This document shows, in pieces, positions 52,473 through 55,744 of a DNA stretch of 64,000 bases. A program made the translations under genes and the position numbers. The notes below the pieces were generated by a model, which worked only from the letters and a program-made list of their open reading frames with translations, did no database searches and was not told where the DNA came from. Position 1 is the stretch's first letter. Every line of letters starts with the position of its first letter. This stretch comes from Streptomyces inhibens (GTDB lineage Bacteria; Actinomycetota; Actinomycetes; Streptomycetales; Streptomycetaceae): positions 31,131 to 95,130 of the forward strand of contig NZ_QUAC01000137.1 in assembly GCF_003389455.1 (NCBI RefSeq). Reading direction: 5' to 3'.

Positions 52473-53948
52473 TCAGGTCTGCGCCATATCCACAAACCGT
52501 GAGTAGTGCCCCTGGAACGCCACCGTGATCGTCGCCGTAGGGCCGTTACGGTGCTTGGCCACGATCAGGTCGGCCTCGCCTGCGCGGGGGGACTCCTTCT
52601 CGTAGGCGTCCTCGCGGTGCAGCAGGATGACCATGTCGGCGTCCTGCTCGATCGAACCGGATTCACGCAGGTCGGAGACCATCGGCTTCTTGTCCGTGCG
52701 CTGCTCCGGGCCACGGTTCAGCTGGGAGAGCGCGATGACCGGGAGCTCCAGCTCCTTCGCCAGCAGCTTGAGGTTTCGGGACATGTCCGAGACCTCCTGC
52801 TGGCGGCTCTCGGCGCGCTTCGAGCCGCCGGACTGCATCAGCTGCAGATAGTCGATGACCACCAGCTTCAGGTCATTGCGCTGCTTGAGCCGGCGGCACT
52901 TCGCGCGGATCTCCATCATCGACAGGTTCGGCGAATCGTCGATGTACAACGGCGCGGCGGAGACATCCGGCATCCGGCGCGCCAGCCGCGTCCAGTCCTC
53001 GTCCGTCATGCTGCCGGAGCGCATGTGATGCAGCGCCACCCGGGCCTCGGCGGACAGCAGACGCATCGCGATCTCGTTGCGCCCCATTTCGAGGGAGAAG
53101 ATCACGCTGGGCAGATTGCTCTTGATCGAGCAGGCGCGCGCGAAGTCCAGCGCGAGGGTCGACTTACCCATGGCGGGACGGGCCGCGATGACGATCATCT
53201 GGCCCGGGTGCAGGCCGTTCGTCAGGGAATCCAGGTCCGTGAAGCCGGTGGGCACGCCCGTCATCTGGCCCTGGCGGGAGCCGATCGCCTCGATCTCGTC
53301 GAGGGCGCCCTCCATGATGTCGCCGAGCGGTAGGTAGTCCTCGCTGGTCCGCTGCTCGGTGACGGCGTAGATCTCCGCCTGGGCGCTGTTGACGATCTCG
53401 TCGACATCGCCGTCCGCGGCGTATCCCATCTGCGTGATACGCGTGCCTGCCTCGACCAGCCGGCGCAGCACGGCGCGCTCATGGACGATCTCGGCGTAGT
53501 ACTCGGCGTTCGCCGCCGTCGGTACGGACTGGACGAGGGTGTGCAGATACGAGGCGCCGCCGACCCGTCCGATCTCGCCGCGCTTGGTCAGCTCCGCGGC
53601 GATGGTGATGGGGTCGGCCGGCTCGCCCTTGGCGTACAGGTCGAGGATCGCCTGGAAGACCAGCTCATGGGCGGGGCGGTAGAAGTCGTCGCCCTTGAGG
53701 ACCTCGACGACGTCCGCGATCGCGTCCTTGGACAGCAGCATGCCGCCGAGCACGGACTGCTCGGCGTCCAGGTCCTGCGGGGGGACCCGCTCGAAGCCGC
53801 CGGCCCAGGAGCCACCGTCGTCGTCGCGGTCCTGTCTGTCGCCGCGGCCGCGGCCCTTGCCCTCGCCCCGGCGGGAGCGGGCGGCCGGCAGCAGGTCGCT
53901 GGGACCGGAGTCCGCCCAGGGGTCCTCCATGGGCTCGGGAATGCTCAC
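52473..53948 (-). CDS. dnaB: Replicative DNA helicase DnaB
   Basis: A 491-residue hexameric helicase that unwinds DNA at the fork. The head is an unusual Arg/Gly/Asp-rich stretch (about 15-50), then the N-terminal helical domain (VPPQDLDAEQSVLGGMLLSKDAI) and RecA-like ATPase: Walker A ARPAMGKSTLALD, Walker B LVVIDYLQLM and arginine-rich KHRNGPT motif 4. No intein interrupts it. The GTG at 53948 follows GGAGGAGG at 7-base spacing. The upstream 458 bp carry DnaA boxes. Confidence 0.97.
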   Translation of the reverse strand: MSIPEPMEDPWADSGPSDLLPAARSRRGEGKGRGRGDRQDRDDDGGSWAGGFERVPPQDLDAEQSVLGGMLLSKDAIADVVEVLKGDDFYRPAHELVFQAILDLYAKGEPADPITIAAELTKRGEIGRVGGASYLHTLVQSVPTAANAEYYAEIVHERAVLRRLVEAGTRITQMGYAADGDVDEIVNSAQAEIYAVTEQRTSEDYLPLGDIMEGALDEIEAIGSRQGQMTGVPTGFTDLDSLTNGLHPGQMIVIAARPAMGKSTLALDFARACSIKSNLPSVIFSLEMGRNEIAMRLLSAEARVALHHMRSGSMTDEDWTRLARRMPDVSAAPLYIDDSPNLSMMEIRAKCRRLKQRNDLKLVVIDYLQLMQSGGSKRAESRQQEVSDMSRNLKLLAKELELPVIALSQLNRGPEQRTDKKPMVSDLRESGSIEQDADMVILLHREDAYEKESPRAGEADLIVAKHRNGPTATITVAFQGHYSRFVDMAQT

Positions 53949-54130
53949 CCCGGCACCTCCTCCCGTCCGCGGCGCGGACCTTGCTGTGCTGTTCTTTCTT
54001 ACGGCACAGCTCTGACAATCGAGACGCCCGACTCCGGTTACGGCGCGTCGAGTTCGGACGACTTCTCAGGTCGGAACAGGCTGCGGGTGCCGGACCACGG
54101 TAGGCCCGTGGGCACCGTCCGCCAATCTGG

Positions 54131-54139
54131 TTATCCACA
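54131..54139 (+). promoter_or_regulatory. DnaA box upstream of dnaB
   Basis: TTATCCACA, a consensus DnaA box. A weaker TCATCCACA lies on the other strand at 54145-54153 and TTCTCCACA at 54166-54174. Confidence 0.75.
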
Positions 54140-54210
54140 GGCCATGTGGATGACTGCCCTACAGCTGTGGAGAAGTCCCCAGATCCTGTGCACGGCACGG
54201 GGGAAACTTC

Positions 54211-54219
54211 TGTGGACAA
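54211..54219 (-). promoter_or_regulatory. DnaA box upstream of dnaB, second
   Basis: TGTGGACAA (plus strand) is TTGTCCACA on the minus strand, the form preferred by Streptomyces DnaA. A degenerate copy, TCTTCCACA, is at 54385-54393. Confidence 0.75.
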
Positions 54220-54406
54220 GCACACAATTACGCCGCCCTCACGTCTCTGACCTGCGACTTTCTCATCCATAGCCTGTGGGGGAGAAAAACTTCTGCCACT
54301 GATCCAAGATCACGACAAACGGCGCGGAGAAGGCGACTCCACACAGCACAAAGTAAGGACCGCAAAGGGTTTGCATCTCTTACCTGTGGAAGATTAGATT
54401 GAGTGC

Positions 54407-55744
54407 ATGACACAGGCTCCCGCGACCACGCGGCGCATCGACCGCCGCCACGACCGCGAGATCATCGCCCTTGCCCTCCCCGCCTTCGGCTCACTGGTCG
54501 CGGAACCCCTCTTCGTCATGGTCGACAGCGCCGTCATCGGCCACCTCGGCACCCCTCAGCTCGCCGGCCTCGGTGTCGCCGCCGCGCTGCTGACCACCGC
54601 CGTCTCCGTCTTCGTCTTCCTCGCCTACGCCACCACCGCCGCGGTCGCCCGCAGGGTCGGCGCCGGCGAACTCTCCGCCGCCATCCGCCAGGGCATGGAC
54701 GGCATCTGGCTCGCCCTGCTGCTCGGCGCCGCGGTCATCGTGGCCGTGCTGCCCAGCGCCCCCTGGCTCGTCGAAGCCTTCGGCGCCTCCAGCACCGCCG
54801 CTCCGTACGCCACGAGCTATCTGCGCATCAGCGCGCTCGGCATACCCGCGATGCTCGTCGTGCTGGCCGCCACCGGCGTGCTCCGCGGCCTCCAGGACAC
54901 CAAGACCCCGCTGTACGTCGCCATCGGCGGATTCTCCGCCAACGCCGCACTCAACATCGGCCTGGTCTACGGCGCCGGTCTCGGCATCGCGGGCTCCGCC
55001 TGGGGCACGGTCATCGCCCAGTGCGGCATGGCCGCCGTCTACCTCGCCGTGGTGATCCGCGGTGCACGACGGCACGGCGCCTCACTACGCCCCGACGCCG
55101 CGGGGATCCGCGCCTCGGCCCAGGCCGGCGTCCCGCTGCTGGTCCGTACGCTCTCGCTGCGCGCTGTTCTCATGATCGCCACCGCCGTGGCCGCCCGGCT
55201 CGGCGACGCCGAGATCGCCGCCCACCAGATCGTGCTCACGCTGTGGTCCCTGCTGGCCTTCGCCCTGGACTCCATAGCCATCGCCGGGCAGGCCATCATA
55301 GGCCGCTACCTCGGAGCGGAGGACCGTGACGGCGCCAAGGCCGCCTGCCGCCGCATGGTCCAGTGGGGCATCGCCTCCGGCGTCGTCCTCGGTGTGCTGG
55401 TCGTGCTCGCCCGCCCGCTGTTCATCCCCCTGTTCACTTCCGACCCCGCCGTGCGCGGTCCGCTGCTGACCACGCTCCTGGTCGTGGCCGTGACCCAGCC
55501 CGTCTCCGGCATCGTCTTCATCCTCGACGGCGTGCTGATGGGCGCGGGGGACGGCCCGTATCTCGCCTGGGCGATGGTGGCGACCCTGGCCCTGTTCGCG
55601 CCGGCCGCGCTGGCCGTGCCGGCGCTCGGCGGCGGACTGGTGGCCCTTTGGTGGGCAATGACCCTAATGATGACCGTACGCATGCTGACCCTGTGGCTGC
55701 GTACCCGCTCGGGCCGGTGGATTGTGACCGGAGCCTCCCGCTGA
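54407..55744 (+). CDS. MATE-family multidrug efflux transporter
   Basis: A 445-residue transporter with 12 membrane helices in two related halves. The start ALPAFGSLVAEPLFVMVDSAVIGHLGT is the DinF-like MATE signature, and AAHQIVLTLWSLLAFALDSIAIAGQ opens the second half. MATE pumps exchange organic cations for H+ or Na+. DnaA boxes lie in its upstream region, shared with dnaB. Confidence 0.93.
   Translation: MTQAPATTRRIDRRHDREIIALALPAFGSLVAEPLFVMVDSAVIGHLGTPQLAGLGVAAALLTTAVSVFVFLAYATTAAVARRVGAGELSAAIRQGMDGIWLALLLGAAVIVAVLPSAPWLVEAFGASSTAAPYATSYLRISALGIPAMLVVLAATGVLRGLQDTKTPLYVAIGGFSANAALNIGLVYGAGLGIAGSAWGTVIAQCGMAAVYLAVVIRGARRHGASLRPDAAGIRASAQAGVPLLVRTLSLRAVLMIATAVAARLGDAEIAAHQIVLTLWSLLAFALDSIAIAGQAIIGRYLGAEDRDGAKAACRRMVQWGIASGVVLGVLVVLARPLFIPLFTSDPAVRGPLLTTLLVVAVTQPVSGIVFILDGVLMGAGDGPYLAWAMVATLALFAPAALAVPALGGGLVALWWAMTLMMTVRMLTLWLRTRSGRWIVTGASR

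Follow-up and report, generated by a model that had tools for sequence, protein, structure and literature searches.

DnaA-box clusters outside the replication origin

Clusters of DnaA boxes situated outside oriC are known from several bacteria. In Escherichia coli (the datA locus), in Bacillus subtilis and in Streptomyces coelicolor, such clusters are described in reviews as repressing untimely initiation; for S. coelicolor this role is given by two reviews, which cite Smulczyk-Krawczyszyn 2006 and one of which puts the clusters close to oriC. The E. coli datA locus works with IHF and promotes the hydrolysis of DnaA-ATP.

One of the closest described sites was reported from mycobacteria, where DnaA occupies the region upstream of dnaB in vitro in Mycobacterium tuberculosis (IDAP-seq) and in vivo in M. 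smegmatis (PMC7738170). The mycobacterial site has the gene and the upstream side in common with the locus described here and belongs to a different family. In Caulobacter crescentus, which is of a different phylum, dnaB likewise has predicted upstream boxes and is placed by a review in the DnaA regulon (PMC8203912).

Structure of the dnaB/MATE intergenic region

The window, the whole stretch of 64 kb that was analysed (C264:31131-95130), is part of a draft genome of 9.48 Mb in 486 contigs. It contains a DnaA-box cluster in the 458-bp intergenic region between the divergent genes dnaB and a MATE-family transporter. Among the matches listed, the closest named relatives of the MATE protein are those of Streptomyces, with up to 94% identity over the best segment. 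The features of the region are as follows.

52473-53948, minus strand: dnaB, replicative helicase, 491 aa (PF00772, PF03796)
53949-54020, minus strand: dnaB leader, highly conserved in the genus, with the Shine-Dalgarno-like GGGAGGAGGT
54131-54139, plus strand: DnaA box 1, TTATCCACA; the full TTATCCACA in 98 of the 99 genus sequences (the own one among them), its TCCACA core in all 99
54145-54153, minus strand: DnaA box 2, TCATCCACA, two mismatches to TTGTCCACA; TCCACA core in 90 of 99 genus sequences
54166-54174, minus strand: DnaA box 3, TTCTCCACA, one mismatch to TTGTCCACA; core in 86 of 99, the remaining 13 having TTACCCACA
54187-54195, minus strand: degenerate box-like CCGTGCACA; 8 of 9 columns show the base of the window in 90% or more of the genus
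54211-54219, minus strand: DnaA box 4, consensus TTGTCCACA; TCCACA core in 58 of 99, TTGTTCACA in 39 of 99
54275-54283, minus strand: degenerate box-like TCCCCCACA; the majority sequence of the genus is TCCTCCACA, with only moderate conservation in the middle columns
54335-54343, plus strand: GACTCCACA, a sixth TCCACA core, without conservation
54385-54393, minus strand: DnaA box 5, TCTTCCACA, two mismatches to TTGTCCACA; core in 99 of 99
54407-55744, plus strand: MATE-family efflux transporter, 445 aa (PF01554)

The initial annotation had placed boxes at 54131 and 54211, with three more having one or two mismatches, in a region common to dnaB and a MATE pump, in agreement with the arrangement found here. 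Box 2 is opposite in strand to box 1, and the starts of the two are 14 bp apart. The 9-mer CCGTGCACA might be a further DnaA box, judging by its resemblance to the others, and TCCCCCACA may be one as well. In the dnaB leader, conservation within the genus extends past the Shine-Dalgarno; a search of the leader (53949-54020) against Rfam matched no family.

Individual boxes are uninformative, because single hits are about as frequent in the window as in shuffles: 5 observed against 6.0 expected with up to one mismatch, and 93 against 89.6 with up to two. Over the whole genome, TTGTCCACA is found 37 times against 18 for its reversed-pattern control, and TTATCCACA 35 times against 7. The clustering of boxes between dnaB and the MATE gene is significantly above chance. 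The intergenic region has six TCCACA cores against a shuffle mean of 0.34 and a maximum of 3, none of 2000 shuffles reaching six. Six cores per 300 bp are unique in the window, the runner-up stretch of that length having three. The boxes thus resemble known extra-oriC clusters in being spaced more closely than expected by chance and, as described below, in being conserved in relatives.

Conservation of the cluster

A search with the MATE protein matched all 101 genus genomes searched, the own genome included. One locus was omitted as a fragment (G050), leaving 100, and the complete intergenic region was available from 99, as one locus (L127) ends at a contig edge. The region is 385-504 bp long in these sequences and 458-460 bp long in 55 of them. 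The mean frequency of the majority base is 0.957 across the five 9-mers and 0.745 in the rest of the intergenic region; when the box set was slid along the region, none of 195 positions equalled it. The steps of 14 and 21 bp that separate boxes 1 to 3 are kept in 77/99 genus and 44/55 family sequences. The full spacing of 14/21/45/174 is kept in 36/99 and 21/55, respectively, the family count rising to 27/55 with one base of slack. Each of 80 named Streptomyces loci has four or more cores within the 460 bp that precede the MATE gene; this set, which does not include S. coelicolor, is biased toward close relatives because it consists of the best 80 of 548 matches.

The boxes might in principle belong to another regulator that recognizes TGTGGA repeats, or be chance occurrences within a promoter, given that the exact TTGTCCACA is present only at box 4 and that boxes 2 and 5 each carry two mismatches. 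This is highly improbable. Chance is rejected by both the shuffles (0/2000) and the slid positions (0/195), the 9-mers are similar to the DnaA box of high affinity published for Streptomyces as TTGTCCACA (PMC4285127), and it is DnaA itself that was located upstream of dnaB in the mycobacterial study (PMC7738170).

The cluster extends beyond the genus. At least four cores in 300 bp are present in 55/55 family loci, despite a widely varying distance between dnaB and the MATE gene; 7 of these loci are of the own genus, and four further matches lie outside the set. The class sample consisted of 30 loci from 29 other families. In the 27 that were scored (26 families) there are always at least two cores in 300 bp, while the three unscored loci hold 2, 1 and 3 cores in 1.1 kb. 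Eighteen more loci, from families f4, f18, f26 and f37, gave the same result (18/18), one of them repeating an earlier genome, so that the combined tally for other families is at least two cores in 45/45 scored loci from 29 families. The families were picked mainly from the dnaB matches listed, and poorly matching ones are therefore under-sampled. No dnaB match was found in 7 of the 296 genomes searched. The 27 class loci contain 97 cores in 18.1 kb, compared with 6.3 in mononucleotide shuffles, and the MATE gene adjoins dnaB in 13 of them. The initial annotation was to be abandoned if the boxes were not conserved in related species. The comparison between species found instead that the cores of boxes 1 and 5 are present in 99/99 genus sequences and that relatives beyond the genus also have cores.

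The arrangement of the boxes in family f4 is unlike that in Streptomyces. Across the 27 class loci, adjacent same-strand boxes upstream of dnaB form a ladder, lying mostly 11-12, 33, 44-45, 55-57 and 64-66 bp apart, though their positions vary by family. The 43 such distances have a period of 10.8 bp with a vector strength of 0.88, which none of 5000 random sets reached. The period persists for the 28 distances longer than 20 bp (again 0/5000), but shared ancestry of the spacings could contribute to it, so that it does not by itself prove that one face of the helix was selected.

Taken together, the conservation in the genus, in the family and in other families and the occupancy upstream of mycobacterial dnaB strongly support the prediction that DnaA binds at the dnaB/MATE site.

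Candidate promoters and proposed control of dnaB

A candidate promoter was located on each side of the intergenic region.

54097-54125, minus strand: candidate dnaB promoter, TTGGCG-17-TACCGT, with genus-majority -35 TTGGCT
54371-54400, plus strand: candidate promoter of the MATE gene, leaderless, TTGCAT-18-TAGATT, its end 6 bp short of the ATG

On the dnaB side, box 1 starts 5 bp upstream from the -35 element of the candidate promoter, and box 5 is situated between the candidate -35 and -10 elements of the MATE gene. In the columns of the putative dnaB promoter the majority base is present in 85-100% of the genus. Its pattern is found in 97/99 genus sequences and in 34/48 family sequences from other genera, compared with shuffle means of 0.02 and 0.0. 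The corresponding values for the putative MATE promoter are 77-100% of the genus and, with a looser pattern, 91/99 and 22/48, the shuffles averaging 0.9 and 0.2. These shuffles, which left the boxes intact, indicate conservation of the hexamers rather than promoter function. A scan of the intergenic region with the consensus sigma-70 pattern returned no promoter and recovered neither candidate. A common GGGGAAAACTT-like motif beside the boxes was also considered and was rejected, as its exact form GAGAAAAAC is present in only 37/99 genus sequences and 16/48 family sequences from other genera.

The arrangement is best explained, with a probability of roughly 0.6, if the dnaB/MATE intergenic region is a conserved DnaA-binding site that acts first as a DnaA-responsive promoter region of dnaB and, in addition, as an origin-proximal site of DnaA uptake. 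DnaA bound to the opposed pair of boxes 1 and 2, the former beside the -35 element, would most likely activate dnaB, and the supply of helicase would then track active DnaA. Activation is favored by the placement of the boxes together with the behavior of the M. tuberculosis DnaA variant I282T, in which reduced binding is accompanied by reduced dnaB, a correlation reported for this one variant (PMC7738170). DnaA bound to box 5, within the spacer of the MATE promoter, might repress the pump gene; the case for such repression is weak, since the candidate promoter pattern is found in just 22 of the 48 family sequences. The existence of the two promoters, the sign of the control by DnaA and the role of the site as a sink are to be understood as predictions. 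Counting against the explanation are the replacement of box 4 by TTGTTCACA in 39/99 sequences and the retention of the five-box spacing in only a minority (36/99). The earlier suggestion that DnaA could control dnaB expression gains indirect support from a box that abuts a conserved candidate promoter and from the lowered dnaB of the I282T variant, and is held back by the empty sigma-70 scan.

Alternatively, DnaA could repress both dnaB and the MATE gene by obstructing RNA polymerase, in the manner in which it acts on the dnaA promoter. The position of box 5 within the candidate MATE promoter is consistent with this, as is the autoregulation that a review (PMC8203912) describes at the dnaA promoters of S. 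lividans and of slow-growing mycobacteria. Nevertheless, repression of both genes is unlikely: boxes 1-4 are upstream of the candidate dnaB -35 element, which is the usual position for activation, and the loss of binding in I282T goes with less dnaB, not more (PMC7738170).

Other clusters and the origin

When the surroundings of all 72 consensus boxes of the genome were inspected, at least four TCCACA cores per 300 bp were found at three places only: dnaB/MATE, crgA and pheA/serS. Such a scan is blind to clusters lacking a consensus box, of which oriC is a case, and some of the sites are near contig ends. The crgA cluster (C307:16516-16754) lies at the 3' end of crgA and is followed by a rhomboid gene. 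The pheA/serS cluster (C264:13051-13433) is on the same contig as the dnaB cluster, about 72 kb away, and has seven TCCACA cores, five of which are TTGTCCACA or TTATCCACA. This stretch, which has three copies of TTGTCCACA, had been considered as oriC. It was ruled out because it is located between pheA and serS, and dnaA with an oriC-like stretch is on C353.

Three clusters near oriC, H69, H24 and D78, have reportedly been described in S. coelicolor, and an in vivo role with deletion phenotypes is said to have been found for D78. By cosmid numbering, crgA, dnaB and serS presumably fall on H69, H24 and D78, with three clusters in each set. On this assumption the dnaB/MATE cluster is probably H24 and the pheA/serS cluster probably D78. 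The dnaB/MATE cluster thus probably belongs to the published Streptomyces set.

The site beside crgA is also found outside Streptomyces. Of 77 loci, 72 carry one core or more, and 55 carry two or more, in the 430 bp at and past the 3' end of crgA, a total of 176 cores in 33.0 kb. In the 430 bp that precede crgA, 10 of the 77 carry one or more and 2 carry two or more, a total of 12 cores in the same length. These counts omit L427, from the same genome as L459, and L436 and L437, which are second CrgA domains of genomes already counted. At least one core follows crgA in 36/38 families, and cores are absent after crgA in five of the 77 loci (L309, L418, L428, L429 and L432). Outside Streptomyces the site is weaker than that at dnaB, because many loci hold one or two cores. 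Helical phasing of the crgA boxes is limited to a 12-13 bp class, with no signal among the six distances longer than 20 bp.

The five DnaA sites of M. tuberculosis, homologs of which were recovered by ChIP-seq in M. smegmatis, include one at Rv0010c-Rv0011c that the authors described as having no obvious counterpart (PMC7738170). Rv0011c is crgA (PMC3989709), which makes the Streptomyces crgA cluster a candidate counterpart of this site, matched by position. The correspondence is unreported in the literature searched, that is, among the top-ranked results in open-licence papers.

On C353, a stretch of 1.5 kb located 3' of dnaA carries 21 boxes of two mismatches or fewer, none of them TTGTCCACA or TTATCCACA. 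From its position and box density it is probably oriC, for which 19 boxes have been published in Streptomyces (PMC3411110). The first 1000 bp past the DnaA C-terminal domain in 25 genus genomes contain 242 cores; TTGTCCACA and TTATCCACA together make up 8 of these and are absent from the stretch in 18 of the 25 genomes. The same consensus 9-mers account for 157/461 cores at dnaB (99 genomes) and for 50/64 at crgA (16 loci).

The dnaB/MATE region is itself an ordered array of several boxes beside a replication gene and near oriC, as would be expected of a secondary or relic origin. That it is one is nonetheless extremely doubtful. The 25 oriC stretches hold 21-31 boxes (up to two mismatches) per 1.5 kb, compared with 5 in 458 bp here, and a Streptomyces oriC, with about 19 boxes, is found beside dnaA, where the oriC-like stretch on C353 lies.

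In 23 of the 24 genus genomes counted, dnaA and the dnaB cluster are 33.3-39.3 kb apart; the own genome is outside this count, its dnaA (C353) and dnaB (C264) being on separate contigs. Like datA-type loci the cluster is thus origin-proximal and, consequently, is duplicated early. In the remaining genome (G089) the cluster is 24.7 kb from dnaA and has the opposite relative orientation, which suggests a local inversion.

The strong boxes and the nearness to oriC favor a role as a reservoir. The site would take up DnaA once it is duplicated, jointly with the crgA and pheA/serS clusters, as follows from several strong boxes lying near oriC. Titration by the dnaB/MATE site is plausible, and it is quite possible, at somewhat below even odds, that the site is mainly a sink of the datA or D78 kind, which lowers free DnaA after its early duplication and is next to dnaB incidentally. 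The concentration of strong boxes outside oriC and the nearly constant distance to dnaA are consistent with such a sink, as is the repression of untimely initiation that the reviews assign to the S. coelicolor clusters. A sink alone need not have remained upstream of dnaB across 29 other families, with a box that abuts a promoter in the own family. D78, with its reported deletion phenotypes, is presumably the cluster at pheA/serS and not that at dnaB/MATE, which we also count against a sink alone. Expression of Rv0010c and Rv0011c was unchanged in the M. tuberculosis dnaA mutants of the mycobacterial study, which fits a non-transcriptional role at the crgA-side site (PMC7738170). Control of dnaB by DnaA and service as a reservoir are mutually compatible, and the preferred explanation of the dnaB/MATE site, as a DnaA-responsive promoter region that also takes up DnaA, comprises both.

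Possible implications for replication timing in actinomycetes

With regard to the published clusters, it is new how deeply the boxes are conserved, that their geometry is kept, that strong boxes outside oriC contrast with weak ones at oriC, and that there is a correspondence at crgA. A broader proposal, to which we give nearly an even chance, is that actinomycetes share ancient extra-oriC reservoirs of DnaA at dnaB and 3' of crgA, and in this Streptomyces also at pheA/serS, with strong boxes of a kind that the Streptomyces oriC nearly lacks. Initiation would wait until the reservoirs are filled, the same binding would set the supply of helicase, and the Rv0010c-Rv0011c site would be the crgA member of the set. 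If this is true, a mycobacterial DnaA site that was left unmatched by its discoverers acquires an evolutionary context. The proposal makes it testable whether the strong boxes of dnaB and crgA determine when an oriC of weak boxes fires. If both extra-oriC sites serve from Streptomyces through the mycobacteria, work on the harmless Streptomyces would inform the timing of replication in actinobacteria.
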